Shown: positions 1 to 48,178 of the stretch, piece by piece
Numbering within the stretch: the stretch's first letter is position 1
Layout of the letters: each line of letters begins with the position of its first letter
Assembly (NCBI GenBank): GCA_023512835.1
Contig: JAKCVP010000332.1
Coordinates: 124,001-188,000, forward strand
Origin: Taxillus chinensis
Lineage: Eukaryota > Streptophyta > Magnoliopsida > Santalales > Loranthaceae
DNA length: 64,000 nt
Reading direction: 5' to 3'
Translations under genes and position numbers: made by a program
The notes under the pieces: generated by a model
Database searches by the model: none
What the model was told of the DNA's origin: nothing
What the model saw: only the letters and a program-made list of their open reading frames with translations

Positions 1-555
1 GCCGCGCGATTTGCAGTCCGCGATACAGCGCGCGCACTGCACTTGCTGCGCACAACATGGGGCTGGATTCTGAACAACGCCAATTCAACGCAGAGTACAC
101 TCCTGGAAGGCTATCTCACCAATGGCAGTTTTGCGTACAGAAATAGCCGTGGATACGAGTACGATGAAAGCTATACCTCACATGCGCACGGGTGGAGTAC
201 AGGGCCTACGGCATCACTGACAAACTTTGTGCTCGGGCTGGATATTGTCGACCCTGGCGGTGCCAGCTGGAGCTTGAGACCACAGTGGGGGGACCTGACT
301 ACGGTAGAGGGAGGCTTCAGTACGCGTCTGGGCAGGTTCAGTGCAAAATGGAGCCGGGATGCAAAGCACATTCGGTTGTCATGGGATATGCCGCTCGGAA
401 CGCATGGGAACGTGGGCGTGCCACTGCCGGCTGGTTCACGGATTGCGGGGCTGCCTAGAGGTGTAAAGCTGACTTTTGAAAAGGGTGCGTTCGCGGAGCG
501 TGTGGCTGTTTGGCCTTGTCGAGGGGGAAAGGGAGGGGTGGTGATTGATAGTTGA
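1..555 (+). CDS. GH78 alpha-L-rhamnosidase-like enzyme, C-terminal part (cut by window edge)
   Basis: The frame is open from base 1 to a TGA ending at 555, so only the last 184 or so residues are present and the start lies outside the window. The segment reads through SYTSHAHGWSTGPTASL, then a VLGLDIVDPGG stretch, then W-x-L-R-P-x-W-G-D-L and a G-G-F-S-T-R-L-G beta-strand repeat. This order (conserved SHGWS-x-GPT, the PG loop, and the C-terminal beta-sandwich) is typical of glycoside hydrolase family 78, which removes terminal rhamnose from plant polysaccharides and glycosides. Catalytic acidic residues would be upstream and cannot be checked. The call rests on motif recognition only; a related six-hairpin glycosidase is the main alternative. 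Confidence 0.75.
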   Translation, partial: AARFAVRDTARALHLLRTTWGWILNNANSTQSTLLEGYLTNGSFAYRNSRGYEYDESYTSHAHGWSTGPTASLTNFVLGLDIVDPGGASWSLRPQWGDLTTVEGGFSTRLGRFSAKWSRDAKHIRLSWDMPLGTHGNVGVPLPAGSRIAGLPRGVKLTFEKGAFAERVAVWPCRGGKGGVVIDS

Positions 556-920
556 TTCAATCCGATGCCCAGCCATTGCAAGAGCTCGGGAACGGCTTCA
601 TATTGAAAAAGGAAACTACTGAAGGATCATGCAAACAGTAGACTCAGCCAATGACTTTTTGAAGTCGCTGACGAGAGGCGTATGAAATAATTAATGATAA
701 TGCTGTAGATCGTCATGAAGGAGTGTCGTAAGTCGTAGAAGTGCTTGTGTGCAGGTCGTCAGCCCTTGTCTCTTCCCTCTCTTTCCGTTTTCCCACTTCC
801 AAAGACCACCAGGTCTCAAAGTAACCGAACGATGTGCCTCTGCTCAGTTCTGGTACGTGCCACAGATGCTGTACCCCGCAGGAGGCTGGACAGGTACTCT
901 CCGTAGTTGGGCTATGCGCT
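556..920. other. intergenic, convergent 3' ends
   Basis: This lies between the 3' end of the GH78-like gene and the 3' end of the minus-strand repeat-peptide gene. Overlapping open frames here are shadows of the repeat gene. I see no gene or RNA; it should hold the two terminators. Confidence 0.6.
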
Positions 921-1712
921 CTAGGCATTCTCAAAAGTGGCCTCAGAAGCGGCTTTAGGTGGTGCGTCATTACGCTTGTACTGGCCATACTTGGAGTAAG
1001 AGCCATATGGGTTGGGAGTAGGTGGCGGGTATGAGCCGTAGTTGGCATACGAGCCATACGGGTTGGCAGGTGGAGGAGGAACAGGGTCGGGGTTAGAAGT
1101 CTCATCACGCTTGTACTGGCCGTACTTGGAGTACGAGCCATATGGGTTGGGAGTAGGTGGCGGGTATGAGCCGTAGTTGGCATACGATCCATACGGGTTG
1201 GCAGATGGAGGAGGAACAGGACCGGGGGTAGAATTCTCATCGCGCTTGTACTGGCCATAGGTGGAGTATGAACCATATGGGTTGGGAGTAGGTGGCGGGT
1301 ATGAGCCGTAGTTGGCATATGAGCCGTAAGGATTGGCAGGAGGAGCAGGAGCCTCATCGCGCTCGAGGTTCTTGTAGGCAACGCGATCGTTATATCCTGA
1401 AGGATCGTCCACCGGCATCTCGTCGCGCTTAGCGCTCGTTTCTGGAGGAGCCTTCCGGTAGTCAGAGTAGCTCGCATAGGCCCCAAAATCGTGCTTAGCG
1501 CTGCGCTCGAGATTCTTGAAGGCAACGGGAGCAGGGAGCTCGTCACGCTTGTGGTTCAGGTAGGCAGTGTAGTCCTGGTAGGTGAGGGAGGGTCCATTGT
1601 TTTCGCCATGTCCTTGGGGAGCATCGAGTGGAATGTCAGCTTCACGCTTCTGCCGAGAGGGCAAGGCCATCGCAGCAGCGGCGAGGGCGAGGAGGAGTTG
1701 ACGCTGCATCAT
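921..1712 (-). CDS. Secreted Tyr-rich KR-punctuated tandem-repeat precursor (KEP; candidate RiPP precursor)
   Basis: A single exon encodes 263 residues. Residues 1 to about 18 form a signal peptide (Leu/Ala core after MMQRQ). A first dibasic KR lies at 22-23, and further KR or basic sites at 55-56, 95-96, 118, 156-157, 201-202 and 246-247, each followed by Asp, Glu or Asn. Three long repeats (119-157, 158-202, 203-247) each carry NPYGSYANYGSY, a PPPTP hinge, then NPYGSYSKYGQY before KR. This is the layout of KEX2-processed repeat proteins, including dikaritin RiPP precursors such as those of ustiloxin and asperipin. In those systems Tyr-containing cores are excised by Kex2 and cross-linked by UstYa-family oxidases. 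A UstYa-type gene is the next gene to the right, divergently transcribed. The repeat units are long (39-45 residues) for a dikaritin, so a structural or pheromone-like secreted peptide is the alternative. A second in-frame Met follows directly at residue 2. Confidence 0.85.
   Translation of the reverse strand: MMQRQLLLALAAAAMALPSRQKREADIPLDAPQGHGENNGPSLTYQDYTAYLNHKRDELPAPVAFKNLERSAKHDFGAYASYSDYRKAPPETSAKRDEMPVDDPSGYNDRVAYKNLERDEAPAPPANPYGSYANYGSYPPPTPNPYGSYSTYGQYKRDENSTPGPVPPPSANPYGSYANYGSYPPPTPNPYGSYSKYGQYKRDETSNPDPVPPPPANPYGSYANYGSYPPPTPNPYGSYSKYGQYKRNDAPPKAASEATFENA
972..1358 (-). repeat. Three in-frame 117-135 bp repeats of the KEP gene
   Basis: Approximate units are 1242-1358, 1107-1241 and 972-1106. 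Each encodes one NPYGSYANYGSY / PPPTP / NPYGSYSKYGQY / KR cassette. Within each cassette the NPYGSY block is itself duplicated. The last two units differ by only a few bases, so recent expansion or homogenisation is likely. Confidence 0.9.
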
Positions 1713-2198
1713 GGATGGGTGTAGTGGCTTTTAACGTTGGTGTAGATGAAAGCGAGCTGAGTTGGCAGCGAGAGAAGGGTGAGAGAGTGGGTGTTGTGGG
1801 TGTATTTATCACCAGTGGCTCCTTGGATGGTGGACGGCGATGAACGCATCAAGCAGTGCTGCTCGCATCATGGACCAGAAGCTGCCGTGCTCGCATGACG
1901 GGCCACAAACAGTGAGCAGAGGCTACGCTGGTAGCAATGGCCAGTTACAGTACAGTGGACCGTATTGTGCTAAATGTGTCATCCTTTGCTTGCCAGTGGT
2001 TGGACCGGAGGGGGACATGTGACGGAGGACGCGGGCAAGGAGTGAGGCTCGGCAGACTGAAAGAGCAGGACTGTAGCCAGAAGCAGGGTGTATGCTGGGC
2101 GCTGCGTTGGTGGATGCTACGGTGCACAGCCAGTGCAGAGAGTCTGATGGCCGTGGAGGATGATGCAACAGGATGGCTTTTGCACGCCCCCACCGGGC
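1713..2198. other. Left half of the former shared promoter of the KEP and UstYa genes
   Basis: This non-coding stretch lies upstream of the minus-strand KEP start and ends at the transposon target site. It has normal base composition, with no RIP-type AT enrichment, so mutation has not spread out of the element. A TATA-like element lies near 1803-1810. No supported gene. Confidence 0.6.
1803..1810 (-). promoter_or_regulatory. TATA-like box of the KEP gene
   Basis: On the minus strand the bases read GATAAATA, about 90 bp upstream of the KEP ATG. This is a plausible core promoter, supported only by motif and distance. Confidence 0.35.
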
Positions 2199-2203
2199 CG
2201 CCG
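2199..2203. repeat. Left target-site duplication of the Copia element
   Basis: CGCCG immediately precedes the 5' LTR and is repeated exactly after the 3' LTR at 7548-7552. Five base pairs is the usual duplication for Ty1/Copia integration. Confidence 0.9.
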
Positions 2204-2376
2204 TGTTGGAAATGAGGACGTTCATTTGACATGATGTCACGTGACCTGTCAGTCACGTGAGTTTCCTAAATAGGCTTAGCGCACCTCCTATAGTATCTCT
2301 CCCTTCTATATTATACTTACTCCTTTAGTTAATTAGATATATATATATTTATCTAATTATTATCTATATTTTAATA
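2204..2376 (+). repeat. 5' LTR (173 bp)
   Basis: It starts TGTTGGAAATGAGGACG and aligns end to end with 7375-7547 without a gap. The outer part (to about 2265) keeps its CA and TG dinucleotides. The inner part, from about 2310, is converted to TA-rich sequence. Confidence 0.92.
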
Positions 2377-2390
2377 GTTATAAGCCCGGC
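2377..2390 (+). other. Primer binding site, initiator-tRNA-Met half-molecule type
   Basis: GTTATAAGCCCGGC directly follows the 5' LTR. Apart from one RIP-type G-to-A change it is complementary to the anticodon stem-loop region of initiator tRNA-Met (CGGGCTCATAAC). Drosophila copia is primed from this internal region rather than the tRNA 3' end. Identification is by eye. Confidence 0.65.
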
Positions 2391-5300
2391 TATTATATCC
2401 TACTCGAATTAGATACTATTACTTATTATTAAGACCTATAGGATACCTAAAATCGATAAGTAAAAGACTAACTCGATTATCGAATTCTAGATTTTAAATT
2501 ACTAGAAATAGACTACCTAGATATATATAAGGACTAGATAATAGGTTAAGAAGTACTAACTCTATATCTATTAATCTAGTATAAGATCTAGAATAAGAAG
2601 AAGGTATCTTAATCGACTAATTAAGATAACTAGACTAGACCGTCTCTATAGGGTAATCTAGATAAGAGCTAATTATAAGCTCGAATTATTTTCCGATACT
2701 TAATCTATTTAATCTAACTATATCTAATACTATTACTATAGCGAACGTATACTAAATAAAGACTACTATTTATCTCGAGAAATTACTAGACTAGAAAGTA
2801 TAGTATTAAAATTTTTAAGAATATATAGAATATAATAATCTATAGGAAAAGATTAATCCTAAGGTAGATAAATCTCTACTAGAATCTATAGTTCTTAAGC
2901 CTTAGCGGACTATACTATCTATAGTTAATCCTATAGCTAAGAACTATATAGATCTCTTAATTAAAGAACGTATATTAATACGTAAGATAGTTATATTCTA
3001 CTAGATCGATTATAAAGAATTTAAATAATAAGAATAAGATCTTACTTTACTATAAGCCTTCTTTAAAGTAATACTATTATCTAGCTTAATAATAGTAGTA
3101 TTAAGGGAAAAAGGTATAAGGAATAAACTTATAGCTTTAAAGGTTATAATTACTCTAAATAAATTTATAGAGTAATAGATTATCGAAAATAATTAAGATC
3201 GCCTTATAACTATACTATATAGTAAAAATATCTAGATATACTTTAATAAATAGATAATACTCTATTAGAGACTTAAAGATACGTTTCTAAATAATATACG
3301 GTTAGAGAGAAATATAGTAATCTAGTTCTTAAGTTTAATCGAACTATTTTACTCTAATCTTATCTATAGAGATAAATTCGAGATTAAGAATAAACTATAT
3401 CTATACTTCTCGATAAAAGATACTCTTAAACTCTAGAGTACCTATTTCCTTAATAAAGGAATTTAAACGTTCCTAAAAAAGAAAAGTTTATTATTATCGA
3501 GGATAAAGAGTATTAGTACTATAAGTATATTCTTAGTAGGGCGTAGCTAACTAGATAATAGGTATAGATAATCTACTAACTATAAGCCTTATATTTATAA
3601 TAGTATATATCGATAGGCGTACTATTAGTACTTAAACGATTAAGTACTACGCTATCCTAAAAATTAGAAGCCCTTTATAGATACTAAGGATAAGATTATA
3701 AAGAAACGTAAGATAGATCCCCGACTTAATACTATTATTAAGGACGCTATTAGTAAGTAGAAATAGTATAATAAGGAGAAAAATAGTAATAATAACTTTA
3801 AGGATAATAAGATAACTTATATAACTACTATTTATTCGATTCGTACTACCTATACTAGATATACTAGTTTAGAACTACTACTATTTAACTACGTTATTCT
3901 CGATAGTAGAGCTAAGATCTATATAGTTAATAATACTCTTATAGACTAGAATCGTCTATTTAACTATTAATAGATTAATAGGAAACTCTATTACGGAAAT
4001 AAGACTATCGATATTATAATAGTAGTAGATACTAAGATTAAGTTATTAAATAGATTATTTAAAGAGTTTATCTTAAAGGATATATATTACGTCTCTAATT
4101 TTATAATAAATTTAGTCTCGTTATAAAGACTTAATAAGGTAAATATTTACTATATTATAACTAAACTAAATTACTTAATTTCGGTTAGTAATAAGACTAG
4201 TAAATAGACGAACCTTTATAATATTTTTTAAGGTAGAATTAATAGGCTATTAGACTATAGAGAAACTCTACGAAAAATAAGTAATAGTAGATACTATTAC
4301 TTTATTAAAAGTAGCTCTAAAAGAGCTCTCTTTATCGCTAAAGTAATATTATAAGTTACTCGGGTATACGAATCTAGAGGTAGTTTCGTACCTAGCTTAA
4401 AATACTTAAGGAACGAACTTTTAGAATATAACTAAAGAACTAGTACTTTTCTTTATCGACTACGATATATACGTACTATTAAAGGCGAAAGCTATTATCT
4501 CTTACTAGAGTAATAAGAATCGAGAGTTATTAACTATTAAGGAATCCGAGTACCTCGCCGTTATCTTATAGAACTTAATAGAACTTAATAGGTCTATTCT
4601 AGACGTAAGTAATAGTAATATAATATATAAATTCTTTAACTATTTTTATTATAAAAAGAATACTACTATATCGGTTATACTTACTAATCTAAAGACGCCG
4701 CCGCTAATACTCTAGAATAATATTTTAAGTATATAGAGATAGACTTTAAAGTAAAGACTATTATATTCTACTTAGATATTAAGGGAGCGCTAAAAGGTAA
4801 GGCTAATAAGGTATTTACGAATTAGGGTATAATTCGTATAATATCTACTCCTAAAACTCTAGCCTAGAATAGCGCTACTAAAGTAGTAGGTAAGATAATC
4901 TAGAGAGTCGCTAGGGTATTTAGAATAGACTTATCCTTATCCTAGGATCTCTAGCTATAGCTGATATAAGTAGCTATATATACTTTAAATAAGATCCTAA
5001 ATAGGTAATTAGATTAGCGAATACTATTCGAGATAGTAATAGGAAAACGCCTATTACTCGCTTATCTTTATCCTATTAGATATAAGGCTTTTATACTTCG
5101 CTACTATATCCTAAGGCTCGATAAATTAGATCTAAGAGTATATATTAGTTTCTATATTAGTTACTTAGATTCGACTAATATCTTTAATATTTAGATTCTA
5201 TCCTAGAATAAGGTTATCCGTACTTGCGATATATACTTTAAAGACTATAAACGGTACTAACCGTTCGAGATCAAGGAAGCGTCGCTAGTAGAATAAATAC

Positions 5301-7374
5301 TATAAGCCTATTATAATCTTATTATCTAAAGGATTATATTACTATTAGATATTTCCTAAGAAATTATACTATTTTAGGACCTAGAAAGTATAGTAAAACG
5401 ACTACTTTTTAAGGTTGATAAAATAGTCTAAAATAGAAATAGAGAAGGGAAAGGTAACTAATTATCTAAATAGATTAAGATAGATCCTTATCTAATACCT
5501 ACTCCTACTAATAATAATAGATTAAGAGATCCGACTCTATCGGCTAGTATTATCTCTATCTCCTCTAGATTATTAATACCTATTTTCGATTCGCTTTTAC
5601 TAATATCTAAGTACTATAGTACGTTCGCTATAGGTATCGAAATACTATCGAAAACTTATCTAAGAATCTACTATTTCGAATTACTACTACCGCCTAATAA
5701 CTAGTATTAGTTATTATCCTATCCGAAATACGATAAATTTAAGAAAGCTATAGAGATAGAAATAATAAAATTCTAAGTACGTCTAACTTAGAGAATAGTT
5801 AAGAATTATAATAGATATAAATTACTACTTCGGTAGGTATTTATATATAAGTATAATAAGACTAGATATCTTATTAGATATAAGGCTTACCTTTATATTC
5901 GCGGAGATCTTAAGTTACTAATAACTTAAGATATATATATAGTAATACTCGCCTATAAGGTATTTCGCTACCTCTACGTACTTATCGTAGCGTTTAGATT
6001 AGAGACTATATAGTTCGATATAGTTAATACTTTTCTTTATACTAAGATAAATAAGGACGTATATTATTAGTATCTACTAGGATTTAAGTAACTAGATATA
6101 GTACTACTATTACTATACGCCCTATATAGATTAGCCGAATTACTAAAGCTATAGTTCGACTATCTTATCTAGGAGTTAGAGGAATTCGGATTCGAATCTA
6201 TTCTAGGCCTTAACTACCTCTTACGTAGTAAAGGTATATTATTATTATTCTATATAGATAATATTATTCTTATATACTAGCTATATTAAGATTCGCTTAT
6301 AAAGGAATTTAAATTATTCCTTAATAAGAAATTTAAAATAACTTACTAAGAGGAGGTAACCTAGTTTCTAGGACTAGAAATCAGGTGTAATAGGGCCGAA
6401 AATAAGCTATTTTTAATCTAATAAGCTTATATCAAGAAGCTTATTATAAAGTTTAATCTCGATAAGATTATAGGTAAATTCCCCTCGGTACTAATTATAA
6501 CTACTATAGACCTAAATCTAAATACTAGATAGGTATTAAAGATAACTATTAAAGGATACTAATAGAAGATTAGATCTATTAGATATATAGCTATTACTAT
6601 ACGCCCTAATATCGTTAAAGCGTATACTATACTAGCTTAATTTAATTAGAATCTATTAGATTATTATAACTATCTTGCTACGTAGGTACTTAGTTATCTA
6701 GCCTATACTAAGTATCTAGGCCTCCTTTTTTATAGAGAGTAATAACTATTCGAGATATATATCGACGTAGCCTTTACCGATTACTAGGATTATAAAAGCT
6801 CCTAAGGCCTATTAATTACTATATACGGCGTAGTAGTAGAGTAGAAGGTAGTAAAGTAGAAGATAGTAATAACCTTAACTATAGAGATAGAACTACTTAC
6901 GCTATTATCTATTACTAGGTATATATACTAGTAGTAGAGGGTGTTCGAATCTCTATAATTTAAGTTATAGGTTTAACTAACTATCTTTTATAATAATTAT
7001 AGAGCGGTTTCGATCGCTAACTCTAATAATTAAACGCTATCTATAAAGCTACGCTATATAGATATATATTAGTACTAGATCTACTAGGAGATAATATTAG
7101 GACGTCTATAGATACTCTAGATTAGTACTAATAACTAGAAAGCTAATAGGCTAACTAAGTACCTATTATACTAGAAATTCGAAGAATTCCGAAGGTAAAT
7201 CGATATTATTTAGTAGAACTAAACTACTAGCCTATAAGAGAATAATAACTATAAGAGGTAGTAGGACTATATATATTCCTTTTAAGATAATACTATATAT
7301 ATATAAAGAATAAATTAGTCGAACTATAGGTAAATTCGTACTATTTATAGACTCTATAAAAGGTAGGAAAGGTA
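2391..7374 (+). pseudogene. RIP-destroyed Copia gag-pol
   Basis: Stops occur in every frame, mostly TAG/TAA where Trp or Gln codons would be. Recognisable remnants are: an aspartic protease D-S-G/R-A with following H/Y-I-x-N near 3899-3945; a C-x2-C-like remnant of the integrase zinc finger near 4460-4480; a reverse transcriptase box now reading Y-I-D-N at about 6251 in place of YVDD; and an RNase H stretch around 6760-6900 (A-F-x-D-x followed by K-S-S, then T-x-E-x-E-L-L-x-L). The integrase-before-RT order is the Copia arrangement. A purine-rich tract (about 7358-7374) precedes the 3' LTR, as expected for plus-strand priming. Confidence 0.9.
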
Positions 7375-7547
7375 TATTAGAAATAAGGACGTTTATTTAA
7401 TATAATATTACGTAACCTATTAGTTACGTAAGTTTCCTAAATAGGCTTAGCGTACCTTCTATAGTATCTCTCCCTTCTATATTGTACTTGCTCCTTTAGT
7501 TAATCAGACATGTATATATTCATCCAATTATCATCCATATTTCAACA
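7375..7547 (+). repeat. 3' LTR (173 bp)
   Basis: This is colinear with the 5' LTR. Here the first part (7375 to about 7440) is RIP-converted. The last part, from about 7486 to TTCAACA at the end, is unmutated: the mirror image of the 5' LTR. Confidence 0.92.
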
Positions 7548-7552
7548 CGCCG
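7548..7552. repeat. Right target-site duplication of the Copia element
   Basis: CGCCG is identical to 2199-2203. The following 250 bp up to the UstYa ATG are the right half of the former shared promoter and have normal composition, with a CT-rich stretch (7752-7800) just before the start codon. Confidence 0.9.
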
Positions 7553-7803
7553 CTCTTTCCAACACAGCAATGTCGCGCAGCCTCGGGCCGCCATGAGCCG
7601 GACTGGCCCGTTTTAGCAGCACTGAGCCTCGCAGCCTGCCATGCATGCCTGCCACCACCACCGCCATGCATGCATGCGATACAAGCACTGAATGGCGGCG
7701 GGCTGCCCATGTGCTTTGTGCCCTGTCTGCACTACTTGCCCCTTCGCCGGTCCTTCTCCTTCTCCTCCTCCTTCTTTTTTCTTCTTCATCTCCTAGATCC
7801 ATC

Positions 7804-8816
7804 ATGGCTCAAGAACGTTACCACAGCATCGATGATAGCTCCAGCCTCGAGGATGAAAAGGAGCGCATGCTTCAGCATGATATGCGCTTGCAGCAGTTGC
7901 GCCAGCACCGCTCACGTTCATGGGTCCCTACCGCCATAATAGCTCTGGTAGCTTTTGCTCTCGGCGTTGCTCTCGGCACCTTCCTCCAAACACTCAACAT
8001 CAGCGACACTGCATACCGATTTGTGTCCATGCCTTGTGAGTACCCATCGGCCTGAGCCTTGGAGACTCGCCTCTTCGTACAAACAGGCTGACCTGATCAG
8101 CGCCTGTTGGCCCAAACGTCGACACCTCGTACCACACAGTCCGGTTCAATGGCACTTTTATGCACGAGAACATCTACCGCAGGGACGGCTCGCCTGAGGT
8201 CGACGAGGCCTGGGAAGCGTTGGGTGTTGAGTGTGAGTTTGAGCGTCCATGACCAGTCGCTGAAGCAGCCGATGACCATCTATGCAGACCGTCCTGGCCG
8301 CATCTCTGACGAAGAGGGTAAACTGGCCGGCTTCGGAGATGATCATGTCAGGATCAACCCAAAGTACGGTGGAGGCTACCCAATGAATGTTGAAGGCTTG
8401 CACCACCTGCACTGTCTGGTATGTCGAGGTGCAGCTTGAGGGTACACTTACAGCGAGGCTAACGCCAGAGACAGAACCTCGCCCGTCAGGCTCTCTGGTT
8501 CAACTATGATTACTATCACAAGCAGGGCAAGGGAGCCTTTGTCAACGAGGACAACATCCTCAAGCTCCACGTGACCCATTGCTTGGACATTCTCCGCCAG
8601 CAGCTGCAATGCTCAGTCGACACGGGTGTACTCGGCCAGGTGTGGTATGATCCAAGCTCTCCCAAATCCTTTGTTGACTTCAACACCGTACACCGTTGCA
8701 AGAACTACGATGCGGTGCGTGAGTGGGCCAAGGAGAGGCAATTGCCCAAGGACCCGCCAGCCGACTTCGTCTTGAAGCCCGAGAAAGGGTCGGTGAAGCT
8801 GACGGAATTGCCTTGA
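7804..8816 (+). CDS. UstYa-family (DUF3328) oxidase-like protein
   Basis: Four exons are inferred: 7804-8035, 8101-8232, 8288-8418 and 8475-8816, giving 278 residues. All introns are 55-65 bp and begin GTGAGT or GTATGT. A cytosolic N-terminus is followed by one membrane helix (about 41-61). Both family-defining HxxHC motifs are present: H160-H-L-H163-C164, interrupted by intron 3 just afterwards, and H197-V-T-H200-C201. The preceding G-G-G-Y-P-x-N-V-E-G-L and W-E-A-L-G-V-E-Y segments are also typical. UstYa-family proteins catalyse oxidative cyclisation or cross-linking, often at Tyr side chains, of fungal RiPP peptides such as ustiloxins, asperipins and phomopsins. The divergent neighbour encodes a Tyr-rich KR-repeat precursor, so a substrate-enzyme pair is the natural inference. 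The family also occurs outside RiPP clusters. The start is the first ATG after the CT-rich leader. Confidence 0.88.
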
Positions 8817-9679
8817 GAGCTCAATGACCTGAAAATGACATGATGACAAGCCATTTTCTAATTACTAATGAGAGCTAATATCGACATGAAGGAAAAGGGG
8901 GAGAGGTTGTCTTGCCTGTCCACACACCCACACACTGTGCCTAGTTCTAAATTGTCTTTATGCTGCTGGCGTCAATTGCAGATGGTTCAGCTGGATCAGT
9001 ATTACGAGGCTGGAATTTGGTAAATCAGACAGTATGGACGACAGTCAAGGGCAAGAATGGTGTCGTTGCCTTGTACGTGGCTGGTCAATGTTGACGATTG
9101 CATGTGATGGCCGCGTCTCGAACGCTTGCCTCATCTGGTCTAGAAAGGCCTGGCCTCGGAGGTTCATGACACCGCGAGATGGACGTCAGACTGCCACGAC
9201 TGCTAGCACTCGACTGCGACTCTGTCTCTGCAAGTACCATTCTATGGAAATGCACTGGCAGCTACCACTTTTCTGATTCATTTCTTACAAACACACTGCC
9301 GAGCCAAGACGAACGCCGACACCCGCCCAGGCCCGAGCGCATGCCCGGTGAGCCTGTGCCACTGCAAATTCTTAGCCAGGCCGGCCGCTGCCGAGAGAGG
9401 ACTCTCAACCATTGTTCCACTGCGCGCCCCTTGCTGCAACAAGAATGGCATTCTCGATTCCAGCCGATCTGCCTAGTAGTGTTGAGCCGGTGTCGTGCTT
9501 TGCCAGGGCTAGCAGGCTAGCAAGTCGCCGTCGACCGTCTGCGGGCACGTTCCTTCCATAGGGCTCTGGACACAAAACCCTGACGTATCCAATTGCGGCT
9601 GTACTTATTGCGTGCTCCAGCTCAAAACCACAGCTGCCTCCAGCTTCCGCCAGTCGTTCGAGCCCGAGAACACAAGACC
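8817..9679. other. Intergenic, UstYa 3' end to ATRR promoter
   Basis: There are only short shadow frames and no recognisable gene or RNA. The right part should hold the promoter of the NRPS-like reductase; I see no clear TATA box. Confidence 0.55.
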
Positions 9680-12600
9680 ATGTCCTTGCTCGATACCACA
9701 AAAGACCTCAATGCCCTCTTCACTCACCAGGCGAGGGCTACCCCGGACCTCATCGCCCTCGAGGACGAGACGGCAACATACACCTACCGAGAGCTCGATG
9801 CAAAGGTCACCGCCCTTGCCGACCAGCTACGACAGTATGGTGTCAGCCGGGACAGCCTGGTAGGAGTCTTGCTGCCGCGGAGTGCTGACTATGTCATTGC
9901 CTGCATGGCCGCTCTCAGAGCTGGCGGAGCTTTCCTCGTCCTCGAGCTTGCATACCCTACCGATCTGCTGTCCGATGTCATCTCGGACGCAGAGCCTGCC
10001 GTCCTCATCACCATCCGAGCAGAAGTCGGCAAGATTCAAAGAGACCTGCCGCTTATCGTTGTAGACGAGCCAACCCCAGAGGCCAACGGCTCGGCCAAGG
10101 AGCCTGCTCCACTGCCCGCCGACGACGACCTCGATCGTCTGGCCTTTGTTGCTTATTCATCTGGCACTACCGGCAAGGTAAGTTCGGCCACCTCCTGCTT
10201 CGCCTCCTGCCCCCTCTCACCTGCTTACCCACCATTGCTCCGCCTTAGCCCAAGGGTATCGCAAACCCTCATCGTGCACCTGTGCTGTCCTACGACTTGA
10301 GATTCCAGCTGAGCGATCTCAAGCCTGGTGATCGCGTCGCCTGCAATGTCTTTTTTGTCTGGGAGATCATTCGTCCCCTGCTGCGAGGCGCTACAGTGGT
10401 CACAGTCCCAGATGAAACAAGCTTCGATCCTGTGGCCCTCGTTGAGCTTCTGGCCGCAAAGAAGGTCACCGAGACCTTGATGACGCCAACCCTACTCTCC
10501 ACTGTCTTGGCTCGCCACCCGCGTATAGGTAACCGCTTGCCTGACCTACGAAGCCTCTGGTTCAACGGGGAGGTCGTCACCACCGATCTCGCGAGACGTG
10601 CACAAAAGGCTCTTCCTCGGACAAGGCTTCTCAACTGCTACAGTGCTTGCGAGACGCACGAGATTGCTTGCGGAGACATAGCAGAAGTCATCAACGACAA
10701 GGAGCCCTACTGCGCTGTTGGTCGCCCATTCCTGCCTGAACATACCTATGTGCTGGATGATGCCGGCAAGAAGTGCGAGGTTGGAGTCAACGGTGAGCTG
10801 TTCATCGGCGGCCCTATGCTGGCGCGCGGCTACCTAAACCTGCCCGATGTCACCGCTCAGGCCTTCACCTCGAACCCCTTTGATGATACTCCTGGTGCCC
10901 GTCTATACAGAACCGGCGATCTTGCACGTATTCTTCCCACTGGTTTCCTCGAGATCACCGGTCGCGTTGGAGCCATGATCAAACTCCGTGGCTACTCTGT
11001 TGTTCCCGCCAAAATCCAAACCACAATTTTGGAACGCTTGGCTGTTGGGCATTGTGCGGTCGTCGCCCACGGTGAAGGTATTGACCGCCAGCTGGTCGCA
11101 TATATCGTCAAGGATGAAGACGCCAAGGAGCGATCAATTGTCTCTATTGATGACTCTGGTCACTGTCCATCTGCTCGTCGTGTCCTGTCGCAATACCTAG
11201 CGCAGTATATGATTCCCGCCTTGTGGGTGGAGATGGACGAGCTTCCAACGCAAAAGACATCGGGAAAGATTGACACAAAGCGCCTTCCTCCTCCTCCGTC
11301 GGGCACTTCCACGCCTCGCTTCGTGAAGAGCGGTCAACAGACGCCAGTTGACAATATCCGTGTAAACGATATCATCAAAGCTTGGGCGTCAACTCTCAAT
11401 GTGCCGGAGGCTAGCATCACGAAAGACCACACATTTTTCGATCTTGGTGGCCACTCCCTGTCCCTCGCTAATCTGGCTGCTCGTCTGTCACGCAACTTTG
11501 GTGTCCGCATACCCGTAGCCCGGTTGGCGGACCCGCCTACTCTTCAAGGTCACTTGGAAACCGTAAAGGCAGTGAGAGACGGTCAGACGGCAGCAGTTCA
11601 GGCTGATCTACCAGCTGTCCTGCGTGCAGACTCGATTCTCGACGACGACATTCAGCCTCCTATCCGCCGAGGAGCCAAAATTGTTCCGATCAAGGAGGCC
11701 AAGACCATTCTACTGACTGGGTCCACCGGCTTCCTGGGTGCATTCCTGCTCAATGACCTTTTGCAGAGCACATCTGCCCAGATTATCTGCCTCGTCCGCT
11801 TCGCCGATCCGACGGAAGCAGACACGTCTGCAGGCATCTCGCGTCTTCGCAAGCACTTACTAGACATGGGTCTTTGGCACGACCAAATCATGGAACGTGT
11901 GGAAATCCTGCCTGCCGATTTGTCCCAGAAGCGCTTGGGTCTTAGTCACGAAGCATTCGAGCGACTTGCAGACCGACTGCAAGTTATTGTGCACGCAGCT
12001 GCCTATGTCAACTTGGTGTACCCTTACGCTGCGCTGCGCTCTGCAAATGTCGGCGGAACGCGCGAGGTGCTTCGCCTTGCTTGTATTTCGGGTGCAACTG
12101 TGCAATACATCTCGACCAACGGTGTGCTGCCGCCTTCGCAAGAAGGATGGCCAGAGGACAAGAATCTAGAGGTGGACGCAGTACCGACAGATCTCCTGGA
12201 CGGCTATGGACAAACAAAGTGGGTTGCAGAGCAACTCGCTTACGAGGCCGGCCGCAGAGGTCTACCGATCAAGATCCACCGGTGTGGCACCATTAGTGGT
12301 CACAGCCTGACGGGTGCAACAAACACGGCAGACTTGGTGTCGGCTCTGATTGTGGAATCGATCCACCTGGGCTGTGCTCCTGATGTGCCTGGCTGGCGTG
12401 CAGAGATGACGCCCGTTGACTTTGTCAGCAAAGCCATTGTTCACCTGTCTAATTCGACGGATGCGACCCAGCAAGTCTATCATCTGGGCGACCCGCGCCC
12501 AGTGGACATGAAGGTTGTGTTCCACAATTTGACGAAGCTTGGGTTCCCCACCAAGGCAATCCCCTTTGATGACTGGGTGAATCTGTGGAACGAGAAGCGC

Positions 12601-13596
12601 GGAGGTGTCAAGGGCGGTGACGGCAACTTTACCGTCGACGTGCTGCGGTCTGGTATGCCTGAGGTGGAGTTTCTACAGGGAATCATTGTGCTCAACAATG
12701 CAAAGACACGCCCCTTCCGAGCGGTGGTGGAGCGTCCACTGGTCGATGCCGTTCTTCTGGAAACGTACGCCCGACACTGGTTTGCACGCGGCTGGCTTCC
12801 ACGGCCACCAGCACTGCAGGACTCGCTTGGCGGCACAGCACAGGCGATCCGCCGAGGACCTCTAAGCGGCAAGGTGGCAGTCATCACCGGTGCGTCATCA
12901 GGTATAGGTGCAGCGGTAGCGACGGCGCTCGCGCGAGAGGGGTGCCACATTGCGCTTGCAGCTCGTCGCCAAGATCAGCTGGAGTCGCTGAAGAAACGCC
13001 TCACGATCCGTGAAGGCAAAGTCATCTGCCACAAGACGGACGTGACGGACCGGGCACAAGTGGAGCTGCTGATGCGCACGGCTAGCGAAAAGCTAGGGCC
13101 AGTGGACATTCTGGTGTCGTGCGCCGGAGTCATGTACTTTACCATGATGGCCAACGCCAACACGGTAGAATGGGAGCGCACGGTAGACGTCAACTGCAAG
13201 GGCCTGCTTCACTGTCTGTCGTCGACGGTACCCGGGATGCTGAAGCGAGGATCCGGACACATTGTGGCGATTTCATCTGACGCGGGGCGCAAGGTGTTCC
13301 CCGGGCTGGGCGTGTACTCGGCCAGCAAGTTCTTCGTGGAAGCGACACTGCAGAGTCTGCGGCTGGAGACGGCGGGCAAGGGATTGCGGGTGACGGCGGT
13401 GCAGCCCGGCAACACCAACACAGATCTGCTCAACATGAGCTCGGACAAGGAGGCGGTGGAGAAGTACGGGCAGCCGAGCGGAGCGCAGATTATGGATCCT
13501 GAAGACGTGGCTAACAGTATTGTGTATGCGCTGAGGCAGCCTGCGCATGTAGCTGTCAATGAGGTTCTGATTGAGCCCCGGGACGAGCCGATCTAG
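9680..13596 (+). CDS. NRPS-like A-T-R1-R2 carboxylate reductase, probable glycine betaine reductase (ATRR type)
   Basis: There are two exons (9680-10177 and 10249-13596), 1,281 residues. The adenylation domain (about 10-520) has the core AYSSGTTGK-PKG split exactly by the 71-bp intron, then YRTGDLAR and GAMIKLRGY. A carrier domain follows with phosphopantetheine site LGGHS (Ser569). Next is a thioester reductase domain (about 650-1010) with a TGSTGFLG NADPH loop and a Y819-G-Q-T-K catalytic motif. Last is a classical SDR domain (about 1038-1281) with TGASSGIG and Y-S-A-S-K. There is no condensation domain. This A-T-R1-R2 order matches the fungal enzyme shown to reduce glycine betaine to choline in two steps via the aldehyde. 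Substrate choice cannot be read with certainty; an aryl- or amino-acid reductase with the same architecture is the alternative. It may be a neighbour rather than a partner of the RiPP pair. Confidence 0.85.
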
Positions 13597-14305
13597 TCAG
13601 GCATTTGGATGACAGGTACGAAAAGGCGTAGACTGTAGTGTATGGCGTCTGCTGTCCTTGGGTCTCTGTCGCGATGTAGACGAGTCGCGCAGTAATGCAT
13701 TTGCTTTTTATCGCATCCTGTGCACGTGCGCTTTCATACCTTGGTCTGTCCAAATTTAGAGTCGTACACGTTAGATCTCGCGTGCCGCGAGGTACCTTGT
13801 CTCGAGAGGCCGTCGCGCTCGTGCCCAAAGCACCTCACGCCAGAGGAATCCACGATCAAAAATGCACAGTAAGCAGTTAGGTTCCATTGGCAGTAGTAGT
13901 CCTTGAAGCAGGAGCGCCACGTGCAAAAAACGCATCGACAGACAAAAGGTATCTTCGCGCACTAGTCCGCGAAAAGACAGTCCTAGATCGAGCTAGACGG
14001 TATACGGCCATGTACGCGCCACATGTCCGTACGTCGGAGATGGAGGGGGGTGCGGAGGTGCGTAGGTGGGGGCTGGTTTATCAGCAGCGCTGGCCGTCGG
14101 GCGCTGCGGAGAGCGATGATGCGTCATTACTTACTTGGGGTGCGGCTGGATTTGCATTTGGCGTTTGACGTTTGGATGTGCGTCTGGTATTCGGATCTCG
14201 GGTTTTCGGTCTTGGATGCTTTGGTGTAGGGTGTAGGGTGTAGGGGTGGTTAGGTAGGTAAAGGGTGTGCTGAGTAAGGACTTGAGATGGGGATGGGGGA
14301 TGGGG

Positions 14306-14312
14306 TATATAG
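14306..14312 (+). promoter_or_regulatory. TATA box upstream of the NmrA-like gene
   Basis: TATATAG lies in a G-rich context about 310 bp before the ATG. The long distance implies a leader of nearly 300 bases. Confidence 0.45.
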
Positions 14313-14424
14313 TGCTTTGTGAGGTGTGCTTCTTATTTTTTTTTTTTTTGGGTGGATAGTATCGGTAGGCACTTGTTCTTTGAAGATCTCTTCTAATGAG
14401 AAGTTGAGCTATTATTTTATCTCG

Positions 14425-14470
14425 AGTACAAATACAAGTACAAGTACAGATACAAGACCAAGTACAAGTC
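14425..14470 (+). repeat. ACAAGT-type hexanucleotide microsatellite
   Basis: This is an imperfect run of ACAAGT/ACAAAT units in the probable 5' leader of the NmrA-like gene. Confidence 0.7.
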
Positions 14471-14617
14471 CGACTCGCATCGACGCAGAATCAAACTTAC
14501 CAGCAGTATCTAATCGACATCACCCCCAGTCGAAAATACCTACTCCAGTCAAGGAAATCCACCCTTTTCAGCAAACATCCCCAGGAAAGAAAGAAGAAGA
14601 AGAAGAAGAAGGAAGAA

Positions 14618-16034
14618 ATGTCAAGCACACGCTTCCTCGGACCAATCCTCGTCACGGGCGCCACAGGTCAACAGGGTGGCTCGCTCATTCGCGCCTTACT
14701 CTCGTACTCGCCTCCGCCGACGATTCTCGCCGTGACGCGCGATGCATCGTCTGCTTCTGCTCGTGAGTTTGCTTCCCTTTTTTTTTTTTTATCCCCCCTT
14801 CTTTCTTTTTCTTTTTTCCCTCAAACCCCCCAAGTTCTTTTTAAAAACAAGAAGAAAGAAAAGGGAAAAGAAAACGAGAAAACCAAGGGAGGAAAAAAAA
14901 AAAACCAGAAAAACCAAAATCTAACAGTATCCAACAGAGCGACTCGCAGCTAAATCGCCCTCGATAAAACTGATCCAGGGCAATCTGGACAATGTCAGCC
15001 AGATATTCAAGTCTGCGCTGGCCGTGGTGCCGTCGATTTACGGCGTGTTCAGCGTACAGCTGCCTGCTGGTCTGAGCGGGGGGGACGAGCATGTCGAGAC
15101 GAGGCAGGGGACTGCGCTCATTGATGAGGCGCTGAGGAATGGCGTGGGGCATTTTGTATATGCTAGTGTTGAGCGGGGTGGTGAGTTTTTCTGTTCCTTC
15201 TTTTTTTTTTTTTTTTTTTTTTTGGGCGAGCTTCGCTCGTTGGTGGGTGGTTGAGGGTGTGAGGATGGGTGTTGACGAGCAACGACATGTCGCGATTTGA
15301 CCGGAATACAAAATCGTCCAGTGAAGACGACTGGAAACGAAGAATCTTAACTAACAAGAAGATCAAATAGGTAATGAACATTCCTGGAGTAACGCCACGC
15401 CTGTCCCACACTTCATTACGAAGCACGCAATCGAGCACCATTTGCGCGACGTCACTTCTTCTTCTTCTTCTGCTCCCGGTCTTTCCTCTTCTTCTTCTTC
15501 TTCCGCCAAGAATGACAAGAAGATGACATGGACCATCTTGAGACCAGCTGCATTCTTCGATAATCTCGCGCCAAACTTTCAGTCGCGCGTGTTTCTCGCT
15601 TCGTTGCGCGGTACGCTCGGCGGCGACGATACGGCGAAACCGCACGATTTCACACAGGGGAAAAATGAACAGGGGAAGAATAAAAAAGGGAAAAAACTCC
15701 AATGGGTCGCAGTAAGAGATATAGGCCTCTTCGGCGCCCGGGCCTTCGCCTCGCCGGACAAATATCATCAGCGAGCGATTGGGCTGGCGGGCGACACGCT
15801 GACACTCGATGAAATGGTGCGTGTTTTCCGGGAGGAAACGCGCACTGGGCTCGAGCCTACATTTGGTATCTTGGGCGGGTTGTTGAAGTTGGCGGTCAAG
15901 GAAATGAGGCTTATGATTAATTGGTTTGGGGATGAAGGGTTTGGCGTTGATGTTGAGAAGCTGAGAGAGGAAGAGCCGAGACTGCTGGATTTGAGGGGTG
16001 GATTCGCGAGGAGAGTGCTTTTGAGAAGAAGTAA
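14618..16034 (+). CDS. NmrA-like NAD(P)-binding protein, possible C-terminal frameshift
   Basis: Inferred exons are 14618-14762, 14938-15180 and 15371 onward. The N-terminus has the Rossmann motif VTGATGQQGG. Conserved blocks follow: L-x-Q-G-N-L-D-N, Y-G-V-F-S-V-Q, F-V-Y-A-S-V-E-R-G-G, and after intron 2 the S-W-x-N-x-x-P-V-P-H-F-x-x-K family block, then a W-T-I-L-R-P-A-A-F-F-D-N segment. These are NmrA/HSCARG-type redox-sensing proteins without the usual SDR catalytic triad. Both introns are unusually long (175 and 190 bp) and full of homopolymers. Exon 3 carries a Ser-rich TTC repeat and a Lys/Gly/Asn-rich insertion. In the current frame the protein runs past 16034. In the +2 frame the sequence gives a typical family ending, G-W-I-R-E-E-S-A-F-E-K-K then TAA at 16032-16034. 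One base therefore seems missing in the G run at 15995-15998. This may be a sequencing error, a real mutation or an unseen intron. Confidence 0.8.
15201..15223 (+). repeat. T(23) homopolymer inside intron 2 of the NmrA-like gene
   Basis: This uninterrupted T run lies in the pyrimidine-rich intron 15181-15370. Length is likely to be error-prone in assemblies. Confidence 0.9.
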
Positions 16035-16594
16035 GTTTTTGGGAGGAGGAGGAGGAGAGAGAAGAGGGGTTGGGTGCTGGTGGGGAAAGTTTTGTTGGGT
16101 TGGGAATCTGCAGTTGGATTTGTGTTTGGATTTGTGTTACGGTCACATCTGCGGATTCCGACTTTCAACGGGTGGAAGAGGCGACGAGCCAGGGAGAGGA
16201 GGAAGATGCTCAGGATGGATCCACAGTTGGTCTGCATCAATACATCATTTGTCTATTTGCTATTTAATGGCTGCGCCGCACTCCGTCTGTTCAAATTGCA
16301 TGCTAGGTGGCTTGATGTCGAGCATGCATTCGCGTCGATTAGTGCATCCATCTTTTCTACCATTGCATCTTTCCTCGCTATACAGTATGCCCGTACTCCT
16401 CGATTCTTCGTCTATTCAATCCTACACCTTAGCAAGGATTGTATATTCAGGACCTTTCTGGTGCCCGTGTCTCTAGCTCTATCTCTATATGTATCTCTAT
16501 CCGCTTGCGTCCCTAATCGTCATCAACATTCGTGCAACTATATCAGTGCAAATAAGACGACCTCGTAGCCAATGCTCAATGACAGTAGCTGCGA
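16035..16594. other. Convergent intergenic region
   Basis: This sits between the NmrA-like 3' end (plus) and the Zn2Cys6 regulator 3' end (minus). If the NmrA-like gene is not frameshifted its last residues extend into this stretch. I see no separate gene. Confidence 0.5.
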
Positions 16595-18567
16595 CTAGTT
16601 CAACCACCTGCGCCTGGGAGCCAACTGCGTCCTCCAGATGCGATCAACGGCAATCTTGTTCCCAGGCACATACGGCGTAGCAACAACATTGTTACTAAAC
16701 ACCCCGCTAGACTTAATCACGGCATCCATAGGCCACCGGCATTTCTGACACGCCGCAACTTCAGAGATTTCGTCGAGCATGATAATCACCACATCCCACT
16801 TGACGGGCAGCTCATGCCCGGCTTTGAGCCCGTATTTTATCGTCAGCGTCGCCGCAGTCTTGTTTGCGCGGTCGTTATAGGCGCAGTCAACGCGCCAGGG
16901 CCATATCACGGGTATCTCGTGCATGTTCGGCCGTCGGCGCAGTTTGTTGTTGGTCTCTACCCAGGCTTCATACCAAACGTCTTGTAGCGCCGTGGCGATG
17001 CTGCTTGCCACCGTGCTGTTCCACGCTTCTTCAATGACACTCATTTCGTCTAGTATTGCGAGCGCCCTTCGTCGTATGCCAGGATGTCGGCAGCGGCACG
17101 CTACAAAGAATATGGGCCCGAGCATCGTGACCGGAAACTCAAAGTCAGCTGCATTTGCATGCATGAGACCCCCAGCTGCATGAATTATTTCATACCGCTT
17201 AACGACATTTTCGTGGCGCTGGATGTCGACCGTCACACTGTCCACATCAAAGTCCGTAGCATTGGGCGGTCTGTTCAGACACAGAAAGCTGTAGCTTGCC
17301 TCAATGGCCTCAATGTGCAAGGTCTCCTGTCGAGTGATGTGTGTCTCCGACATTTTACCCTTCAGCTCGTTCCATGACTGCTCCCAGAAGCGAAGCACCA
17401 CTTCGACAATAGCCCAGTTTTGTGTGCGGATAAACGAGCCAGTATGTGACAGATCGAAATAGGTCGGGCGGCGTGTACAGATGTCTTCAATGGCATTGTT
17501 TGCCTCCTCTAGCGTCCTAAAGTCGTACCAGCGTGTACGCGTTGTCAGAGCTTGGTCGGTTGGCGCCACGTCTTTTTGAGCGAGGATCTTGCCGAGAAGA
17601 TGGTAGTGGTCCGCCGCCATGAAAATGTATGGCGATAGCTCGTCAACGATATCCTTGCGGCGTCGCTGTCGAGCCGTGAGACCAGTTTCCACGTGATCTT
17701 CCCAGTCTTTCTGCCAGTCTGACAGGAAGAAAAAGGACTTTTCAATCTGTTTCGCGTTGGCAGCTGTATCGCCTGTTCTCATCAGCTCGCACATGCCAAC
17801 CATGATGTTGCAAATGACAAAAGCCTCGTCCGAGAACTCGCTCCAATGATTCTTCATCCGGGTCACGGCTTTGTGCACGCAGGCATAGTAATACGTCGAC
17901 TCATTGGGGCCGTCAGGGTCAACAACCGCTCGATGCACAGTCGCCAGGGCTCCTATCAGATAGTCGACGGCAGGCTCTTCCAGCCGCAGTTGGGCACAGG
18001 TCTCCTTGGACCATATTGGATAGAACTTTGGGTCAGCTTTGCAAGCGGCCGTTAGTCAACCTTGGTAGAGGCAACAGTTTCAAAAAGGGACCACAAACCG
18101 TCAGTTGGGGCTATTATAAAAGTGCTGAAGTACTGAAACGAGGCCAATCGTCGACTATCATCATGCCGCAGCAGTGACTGCAACGAAAGCTCCGGCTGCA
18201 CAGCTTCCGGCGTCTGAAAAGGACGCTGATAGGGCTGTTTCTGCGCCGGAACCACAGCTGTCTCACTCTCATCTGCAGGAGGAGACGAGTCTGGCTCGAA
18301 CAACCACGTCTTGGGTGGACTGTAACGGCACGGACGATTCCTCAGCTTGCATCTATTGCAGACGGGCCGGTTCTCGTCGCACTTTATCTTTCGCAGTTCT
18401 GTGACAAGCGTCAGTCAAAGCGTCTAGGCAGTCCGGGCAGCGCTGGGGAACCGACTACAGGTCTCGCAGCCAGAACGTGAGCGTGCAATTCTCTGCTCGC
18501 GAGGCTGTGGGGGCTGAGTGGTATTCGTCGGCGACACAGTGGGGCGCGGGTACGAGACGTTGGCCAT
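16595..18567 (-). CDS. Zn2Cys6 binuclear-cluster transcription factor
   Basis: Three exons are inferred, in transcription order 18567-18456, 18398-18099 and 18036-16595, giving 617 residues. The DNA-binding cluster is split by intron 1: CETCKLRKIKCDENRPVC continues to N-R-C-K-L-R-N-R-P-C, fitting C-x2-C-x6-C-x6-C-x2-C-x6-C with Cys at 34, 37, 44, 51, 54 and 61. The remainder is a helical fungal-specific regulatory region with no enzyme motif. Intron 2 is placed at 18037-18098 because a CTAAC branch point precedes its acceptor. A shorter 35-bp intron (18068-18034 region) would also keep the frame and retain a W-S-L-F-E-T segment. The first intron uses a weak donor (GTCGGT). Its target genes are unknown; it is convergent with the NmrA-like gene. 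Confidence 0.88.
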
Positions 18568-47619: not shown

Positions 47620-48178
47620 CCTGCTTGATCAAGGCAGGGCGCGCAATTCTACCAGTCTCAGAGCAAAGGTAAAGCCACTCCCCTCGTGCGAGACCTAGAG
47701 AAGCTGAGATAACGAGGGCACGGTGTTGTGAGAGAAGACGTCAGTGCGGACAGAAGGAAGGGGGCCAAGGTAGATGTGTGAGAGAACAAGGCTGAGAAGG
47801 GGTCATGTTGATGTGGGCGTGCATGAGAGGCGCCGTCCGGGCCAATGAGACGAGAAGGATTCTGCTGATCTGGTAGCAGGCAGCTGGATGGTAGCGAGAT
47901 CATCTTCTTGATAGGTTGTCGCATATTATGGAAACGTCTGGCTGCCACATTGTTGCTCTGTACTGTTTGTAGAAGTGAAGTGCACCTTCCCTGGGCTCCA
48001 CCTCACACGACTCTTCCGGAAATGGTGCGGCCCACAGCGCAATGAGGCTGAGAATCCCTCCAAGTGCCACAAGAGATGAAAATCGCCGGCATGCCTGCTT
48101 CATAGCATGGTAGAGCAGCTGCTATTCAAGACATTCAATGCGCATACTAGTACATTCAAGAGCAGCGTGCGTAGCCTC
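47620..48178. other. Intergenic between two minus-strand genes
   Basis: One 67-codon frame (47900-48103, minus) starts with a hydrophobic segment but has no second line of support. Otherwise this is the NACHT-ankyrin promoter region. Confidence 0.45.

Follow-up and report, generated by a model that had tools for sequence, protein, structure and literature searches.

Introduction

Dikaritins are ribosomally synthesized and post-translationally modified peptides (RiPPs) with a KEX2-processed repeat protein (KEP) as precursor and, since 2021, a UstYa/DUF3328 protein as the class-defining enzyme, parts of the accessory gene set proposed in 2016 having later proved dispensable, as stated in PMC12048977. 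According to PMC10512285, the number of reported dikaritins stood at only five in 2022, and the literature gives their cores as 4 to 7 residues long (4 to 8 in an earlier note on the DNA considered here). In asperipin-2a, ether bonds link Tyr side chains to beta-carbons and sequential macrocyclization by a single UstYa protein has been proposed (PMC6514808), the asperipin cyclase AprY being described as copper- and dioxygen-dependent (PMC12435403). Here we analyze a locus of this type in a 64-kb stretch of DNA (hereafter, the window) that forms part of the 194,739-bp contig C198 of the Taxillus chinensis assembly (GCA_023512835.1; 521 Mb, 264 contigs). The locus comprises a gene for a Tyr-rich repeat precursor and an adjacent, divergently oriented UstYa gene, and we estimate at roughly two in three the probability that this UstYa oxidizes this precursor, the two forming a dikaritin-like RiPP pair.

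The association of both protein families has been surveyed at large scale. According to PMC7329392, a DUF3328 gene lies no more than 15 genes away from 22% of 7,878 KEPs, with a peak at the next gene, and Tyr is present in 65.6% of the repeats of KEPs with such a gene versus 38.2% of those without it. The same source counts 9,399 DUF3328 genes in 1,461 strains, that is, 6.4 per strain. KEPs rich in Tyr have been noted before, for example in Rhizophagus (PMC6339444).

A tyrosine-lattice precursor next to a UstYa gene

The window locus consists of the precursor gene at 921-1712 (minus strand) and the UstYa gene at 7804-8816 (plus strand), with the features listed here together with the basis on which each was recognized.

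921-1712, minus strand: precursor gene of 263 amino acids, a single open frame that needs no intron (frame analysis)
1662-1712, minus strand: presumed signal peptide, residues 1-17, MMQRQLLLALAAAAMAL (by eye)
1551-1643, minus strand: degenerate KR-bounded block 1 with TYQDYTAY (KR blocks, Tyr lattice)
1431-1544, minus strand: degenerate KR-bounded block 2 with AYASYSDY (KR blocks, Tyr lattice)
1248-1328, minus strand: core 1, residues 129-155, YGSYANYGSY-PPPTPNP-YGSYSTYGQY, followed by KR (KR blocks, Tyr lattice)
1113-1193, minus strand: core 2, residues 174-200, YGSYANYGSY-PPPTPNP-YGSYSKYGQY, followed by KR (KR blocks, Tyr lattice)
978-1058, minus strand: core 3, residues 219-245, identical to core 2, followed by KR (KR blocks, Tyr lattice)
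7804-8035, plus strand: UstYa exon 1, N-terminal tail and membrane helix (splice models, alignment with relatives)
8101-8232, plus strand: UstYa exon 2 (splice models, alignment with relatives)
8288-8418, plus strand: UstYa exon 3, ending just past HHLHC, residues 160-164 (splice models, alignment, motif)
8475-8816, plus strand: UstYa exon 4, with HVTHC, residues 197-201, C211 and C240 (splice models, alignment, motif)

The earlier note had described both genes, the first as a precursor with Tyr-rich tandem cassettes each ended by Lys-Arg (KR), and these descriptions are borne out by an open frame and a PF11807 gene, respectively, the signal peptide being assigned by eye. KR occurs at six sites of the precursor (residues 22, 55, 95, 156, 201 and 246), which delimit blocks of 31, 38, 59, 43 and 43 residues and a 16-residue tail. 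The tandem cassettes repeat with a period of 135 bp (2.8 copies, 90% matches) and, instead of the 39-45 residues assigned to them before, measure 43 residues between KRs (45 with the KR included), the first of the three lying within the 59-residue block. The last three blocks read NPYGSYANYGSY-PPPTP-NPYGSYS(T/K)YGQY, with 8 Tyr per 43-residue cassette. For the linear peptides of the two 43-residue blocks, the calculated [M+H]+ values are 4598.04 and 4666.06. Tyr residues follow each other in steps of three in all five blocks: 22 Tyr pairs are found at distance 3, whereas 20,000 within-block shuffles gave a mean of 4.3 and a maximum of 11; no Tyr pair has a distance of 1, 2, 4, 5 or 7. The lattice is also detected in the degenerate N-terminal blocks alone (p 0.006 and 0.005).

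Codon changes between cassettes are mainly silent (silent/replacing changes of 8/2, 6/2 and 3/0 over 31 codons), which indicates that the peptide sequence of the cassettes has been kept. Among six 12-residue half-units, third codon positions vary in 9 of 12 cases and first and second positions in 2 of 12 each. Because of this codon-change pattern, it is the precursor frame that appears to be under selection, and an overlapping 277-amino acid frame at 713-1546 (minus strand) was rejected as a gene. The latter frame stays open owing to the precursor repeat. The precursor frame itself is intact; a long terminal repeat (LTR) element lies nearby.

KEPs are recognized as secreted proteins with near-identical repeats separated by KEX2 sites; the precursor has such repeats and sites, is predicted to be secreted, and carries the Tyr in the core that is expected of a dikaritin. 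In the spacers that precede its three cores, Pro or Ala occupies 19 of the 32 even positions versus 6 of the 32 odd ones (p 0.002, with cassettes that are not independent of each other), which resembles the signature of STE13-type dipeptidyl peptidases. This signature, repeated X-A or X-P starting directly behind KR, is imperfect, since the first dipeptide after KR is mostly DE (4 of 6 sites; EA and ND at one each). A protein search retrieved no homologue of the precursor at E<=0.001 among 2,263 candidates, and within its own assembly the precursor matched only itself and one sequence by chance (E 2.66). Papers containing the core strings look irrelevant by title, as judged in one of the searches from part of the papers.

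The UstYa gene has four exons and encodes 278 amino acids with a PF11807 match of 187.5 bits (4e-55; cut-off 25 bits). The gene model was picked from 12 stop-free splice models as the one with GTGAGT, GTGAGT and GTATGT donors, and runs in register with the relatives over exon junctions 2 and 3 (46 aligned, every second row viewed). Both HxxHC motifs are located where the earlier note had placed them (HHLHC at residues 160-164 and HVTHC at 197-201); their four His and two Cys residues, which make up the copper motif, are invariant in the 46 aligned relatives, as are C211 and C240. The database contains 545 relatives of the protein at E<=0.001, of which the best 120 are 45-63% identical to it over differing coverage. 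By source name, these 120 belong to Leotiomycetes, Eurotiomycetes and Dothideomycetes, including the powdery mildew Podosphaera; no relative was found in viral or prokaryotic contigs. In a tree of the best 120 of the 545, the window UstYa pairs with the public protein P0049 (support 0.65) within a group of five (0.90). The search for solved-structure kin by sequence returned only MmpS5 chains (E 0.36), which were judged chance matches and rejected. Foldseek comparison of the model of relative P0001, used in place of the window protein (pLDDT 81, pTM 0.68), with the PDB produced 127 matches at E<=10 and none at E<=0.001, and for this reason no fold argument is made.

A membrane-anchored UstYa next to a secreted-type precursor with KR repeats is the combination that defines the dikaritin class. 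With 6.4 DUF3328 genes per strain and about 10,000 genes in a fungal genome, the probability that a UstYa gene is the immediate neighbor of a given gene by chance is on the order of 0.1%.

Recurrence of the pair and of the precursor plan

A PF11807 search of the assembly produced 26 exon-level matches on 11 contigs, and on all 11 the flanks of the UstYa genes were covered by simple scans of their unspliced frames, over 0.8 to 10 kb on each side. For the tree of UstYa proteins of the assembly, 4 of the 13 other matches were dropped because they had no usable frame, and matches L005 and L015 are one protein. A second pair was found on contig C256, where a UstYa gene with its start at 6054 (minus strand) faces a precursor gene with its start at 7285 (plus strand), 1,230 bp apart. 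A 211-amino acid frame without Pfam match overlaps this intergenic stretch, so one further gene between the two is possible. The C256 UstYa is 61% identical to that of the window in the last exon and 54% over residues 74-165. The C256 precursor gene has two exons, 7285-7398 and 7448-7633 (plus strand), and encodes a presumably secreted protein of 99 amino acids containing QTYKNYGTYKNYPAKYATYKDY-PKPAPAPAK-YSNYGKYTKYSR. Its Tyr residues are at positions 35, 38, 41, 44, 48, 51 and 54 and, after a Pro-rich hinge, at 64, 67, 70 and 73, with 8 YxxY pairs against a mean of 2.0 and a maximum of 7 in 20,000 shuffles. Within the assembly, this precursor matches only its own two exons. The UstYa that faces it is nearly identical to P0049 (tree distance 0.01), and another public data set therefore contains the C256 fungus or one closely related to it. 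The earlier note had considered that its proposal would fall if the two genes were never neighbors in relatives or if the UstYa were linked to another type of precursor; the C256 pair speaks against both.

A third precursor, P0122, is encoded on a 2,927-bp contig. It was the sole match of a loose search with residues 1-205 of the window precursor (E<=10; one of 1,962 candidates), at E 2.9 and 26 bits in a database of 5.8 billion. Although its pairwise comparison with the window precursor gives an E of 3e-10, the database match is weak and the relationship rests on the common plan. P0122 has a presumed signal peptide followed by YGKYANYGSY-PPPKGG-YGKYANYGKYGAAKR, i.e., the same succession of four Tyr, PPP and four Tyr, and its spacers contain Pro or Ala at 12 of 14 even versus 0 of 14 odd positions (p 6e-6). 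By eye, the P0122 tail does not seem to be in frame. The three precursors have different residues between their Tyr (GS, AN, SK and GQ in the window; KN, GT, AT, KD, SN, GK and TK in C256; GK, AN and GS in P0122). Such conservation of the lattice while the residues between the Tyr vary is expected if the Tyr side chains at positions i and i+3 are joined.

The motif YxxYxxYxxY was present in 4 distinct frames out of 3,939 (>=40 amino acids; 260,357 bases, some overlapping), namely the window precursor, the C256 precursor, an antisense frame of the window repeat and a short low-complexity frame of contig C44. Apart from this C44 frame, no Tyr-lattice precursor was found by the scans of the eight UstYa contigs other than C198, C256 and C121. 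Contig C121 carries the paralogue closest to the window UstYa (79% identity over 113 residues of the last exon; tree support for the pair 0.999).

About 367612-368500 of C121, minus strand: UstYa paralogue, matches L039/L040 (last-exon match, flank scan)

Exon 1 of this paralogue contains a stop and a frame change ahead of the membrane helix, which we interpret as decay of the enzyme, possibly after loss of its precursor; splicing could explain it instead. The same scans revealed on contig C99 a KEP of the usual type (L033, 2173-2685, minus strand; cores SEYGVTMK, spacer AYDGLEKR) near a UstYa match at 5372, which is a candidate ordinary dikaritin. Besides that of C99, they found no repeat-type KEP on these eight contigs.

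Intergenic element, neighboring genes and origin of the contig

The region between the two genes, in which the earlier note had overlooked any element, is largely occupied by a retroelement.

2204-7547, no strand assigned: LTR retroelement, copia-like by eye, mutated by repeat-induced point mutation (RIP) and not part of the system (direct repeats, target duplication, RIP index)

This 5,344-bp element is flanked by a perfect 5-bp target duplication (CGCCG) and ends in the direct repeats 2206-2374 and 7377-7545. Its body has 26.8% GC and a RIP index (CpA+TpG)/(ApC+GpT) of 0.02, against 1.16-1.33 in the precursor, the UstYa gene, a nearby gene of the non-ribosomal peptide synthetase (NRPS) type and the rest of the window. 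It was rejected as a component of the system. The gap of about 6.1 kb between the genes results from its insertion: the start codons are now 6,091 bp apart and would be 742 bp apart without the element, a typical divergent arrangement. The genes on either side are untouched by RIP. The occurrence of RIP implies that this lineage has been sexual at some point.

The Pfam scans of the surroundings covered 20 of the 50 listed frames of the window and 10 of the 31 listed across 30 kb to the left. An NRPS-like gene begins 0.86 kb past the UstYa gene, on the same strand (about 9680-13596), with adenylation, carrier, thioester-reductase and C-terminal short-chain dehydrogenase domains (A-T-R-SDR). We take it to be NPS10-like; such A-T-R-SDR genes are widespread in ascomycetes. 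It is followed by three genes:

15355-16473: NmrA-like gene
16598-18414: Zn2Cys6 regulator
19637-21901: Ostalpha-type transporter

These three genes are perhaps part of a small metabolite cluster or accessory to the peptide pathway. Transporters are found about 11 kb to either side of the locus, and an aspartyl protease and an S33-type hydrolase 48 and 54 kb to the right, respectively. The left side contains a rhamnosidase and, in the frames scanned, a pyridoxal phosphate enzyme, a leucine-rich repeat protein, a pinin-type protein, an amidohydrolase, a chaperonin and the sugar transporter located about 11 kb away. At 44527-47628 (minus strand) the window also encodes a NACHT/nephrocystin-type NTPase with ankyrin repeats, similar to fungal NLR (NOD-like receptor) proteins.

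The UstYa gene and the RIP-type mutation indicate that the window is of ascomycete origin, and the assembly is probably that of the host genome mixed with one or more associated ascomycetes. Contig C9 of this assembly measures at least 16 Mb, while the UstYa-bearing contigs have 0.09-0.58 Mb.

Proposed pathway and alternative explanations

Based on these features, the precursor would enter the secretory pathway by means of its presumed signal peptide and be cut after each KR, at its six sites, by a Kex2-type protease, with subsequent loss of KR from the C-terminal end of the released peptide. A STE13-like dipeptidyl peptidase may trim the N-terminal end by two residues at a time, as the Pro/Ala spacers suggest, which would leave cores near YGSYANYGSY-PPPTPNP-YGSYSKYGQY. 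The membrane-anchored UstYa, given its HxxHC...HxxHC motif (which holds two coppers in CctR), would be a lumenal copper oxidase, active as a dimer, and oxidize Tyr side chains within each tetrad. The most likely products would be i,i+3 Tyr links, as ether or carbon bonds, with a stiff Pro hinge connecting two blocks of small rings. That the links are specifically i,i+3 between Tyr is a tentative proposal, to which we give somewhat less than even odds. More doubtful is a broader view in which such “Tyr ladders” represent a separate RiPP subclass, with two YxxYxxYxxY runs around a Pro hinge, pheromone-style dipeptide spacers and one UstYa that makes several links serially. Should it hold, the product could be a peptide common to many fungi, with a role in development or at the surface, instead of a toxin; such wide occurrence is suggested by the conservation of the UstYa family from leotiomycetes to aspergilli and powdery mildew.

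Of the dikaritin proposal made in the earlier note, what stands is the KEP-type precursor and the UstYa with its full HxxHC pair as divergent neighbors, to which the second pair on C256 is now added; the statement that precursor and UstYa are the minimum needed was too strong, as the asperipin-2a cluster is described as having four genes (PMC6514808). Several observations weigh against the pairing that we propose. Known dikaritin cores have 4-8 residues and repeats of 8-14, against cassettes of 43 and a Tyr core of 27 here. The C256 precursor has no significant BLAST similarity to that of the window (best E 0.22), the plan alone being in common; it lacks KR sites, so that cleavage would have to take place at single Arg residues; and the smallest tree group containing both UstYa proteins has a low support of 0.29. 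No Tyr-lattice frame was found in the 6.6-kb and 5.5-kb flanks of the C121 paralogue. The accessory set of the 2016 dikaritin proposal comprises a tyrosinase, a methyltransferase, several DUF3328 genes and a peptidase or transporter; neither a tyrosinase, a methyltransferase nor a second UstYa was found in the window and left-hand frames scanned. The LTR element could have uncoupled or silenced the two genes, and the UstYa could serve a small metabolite cluster made up of the NRPS-like gene, the NmrA-like gene, the regulator and the transporter.

In this last case the UstYa would tailor the product of the NRPS-like gene, perhaps together with the NmrA-like gene, the regulator and the transporter, and the KEP would be a bystander. 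The domains of the A-T-R-SDR gene and the genes that follow it fit this explanation. DUF3328 proteins are reported to work in NRPS and polyketide pathways (PMC12048977). Against it, no NRPS-like domain was found in 8 of 17 frames of C256 (which include a cutinase and a major facilitator superfamily transporter) or in 2 of 8 frames of C121, the only blastn match between positions 1-20000 of the window and 13 kb of C121 is the UstYa gene, and it is the Tyr-lattice precursor that recurs on C256, all of which makes this explanation improbable. Somewhat less improbable, yet still unlikely, is that an ordinary KEP releases linear Tyr/Pro-rich peptides, as alpha-pheromone-like signals or surface peptides, with the UstYa as bystander. 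The STE13-like dipeptide spacers of the window precursor and P0122 resemble those of alpha-pheromone precursors, and the signature is reported absent from the precursors of toxic cyclic tetrapeptides and epichloecyclins (PMC6339444); moreover, 78% of the 7,878 KEPs in PMC7329392 are without a DUF3328 gene in the 15-gene range. This is countered by the presence of two divergent pairs of UstYa and Tyr-lattice precursor in one assembly and by the features of the window precursor, for which no Pfam family, and hence no MF_alpha match, was reported at E up to 1 and whose sequence contains neither Cys nor a PYG[LM]P[IV]G core, so that no mark of the alpha-pheromone class (MF_alpha match, Cys-paired or PYG[LM]P[IV]G core) was found in it. 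Pheromone-annotated KEPs are, in addition, described as lacking DUF3328 neighbors in all but three cases (PMC7329392).

The least probable of the explanations, by a narrow measure, is that the peptides are structural and that Tyr links made by UstYa or by a peroxidase build a wall, spore or surface polymer. The density of Tyr in the cassettes, the Pro-rich hinges and the several copies per precursor would suit such a role. However, the Tyr spacing, fixed at exactly 3, points to intramolecular links, the characterized products of UstYa cyclases are small macrocycles (PMC6514808), and no Pfam domain was reported in the precursor. Oxidation of the precursor by its neighboring UstYa remains the explanation that we favor.

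Significance and comparison with known systems

If the pairing holds, a large UstYa family (545 relatives) is tied to a precursor anatomy that has been seen three times, twice beside a UstYa gene. It also provides a search rule, i.e., YxxYxxYxxY, Pro hinge and YxxYxxYxxY next to a UstYa gene, for precursors that largely escape sequence searches, as well as a series of substrates with which to study the action of a copper oxidase on Tyr residues repeated in i,i+3 register within a core of 27 residues. Neither cores of this length nor a bipartite Tyr-Pro-Tyr arrangement nor dipeptide spacers adjoining a UstYa gene were found in the literature consulted, as far as the texts of PMC7329392, PMC6339444, PMC12048977, PMC10512285, PMC6514808, PMC9632046, PMC7099791, PMC12186524, PMC12435403 and PMC7303927 describe them; the supplementary tables of the KEP surveys may hold unnamed types.

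The described systems resemble the window locus in different respects. CctR acts on another kind of substrate, as it hydroxylates the non-ribosomal cyclic peptide cyclochlorotine. It shares with the window UstYa the membrane helix and the HxxHC(x)nHxxHC motif, and is reported to form a dimer with two coppers per monomer (PMC12435403). The alpha-pheromone precursors (MF-alpha, Ppg1, Ccg-4) have a signal peptide and KR cassettes as well, and STE13-type Pro/Ala spacers that those of the window precursor match imperfectly, but their cores are Cys-paired or of the PYG type and linear, and their DUF3328 neighbors are rare, with the three annotated exceptions mentioned above (PMC7329392). The dikaritin precursors of the dothideomycete Venturia inaequalis (e.g., Cin3) are also secreted tandem-repeat proteins beside DUF3328 genes; compared by their description in PMC9632046, they come with no mention of a Tyr lattice. 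The ustiloxin, phomopsin and victorin dikaritins share the signal peptide, the KR-separated repeats and the DUF3328 neighbors. Unlike the window locus, ustiloxin and phomopsin are described with short cores and Tyr-Ile links (PMC6514808, PMC7329392), and their clusters with a tyrosinase, a methyltransferase and two to five UstY genes, the first two of which were not found here in the frames scanned. The asperipin-2a system of Aspergillus flavus (aprA/aprY) likewise combines a KEP precursor with a single UstYa (AprY) and has a Tyr-rich core, FYYTGY, that contains YxxY (YTGY). Its cluster includes isoflavone-reductase-like and transporter genes, whereas here an NmrA-like gene, which might recall the former by analogy, and transporters are 6.5 to 11 kb away past other genes. 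Asperipin-2a lacks the bipartite plan of Tyr, Pro hinge and Tyr, and its core of 6 and repeat of 8 residues (PMC7329392) contrast with about 27 and 43 here. The kind of system, a KEP with a UstYa, is thus a known one, and it is the core of about 27 residues, far longer than those of known dikaritins, that sets the window locus apart.

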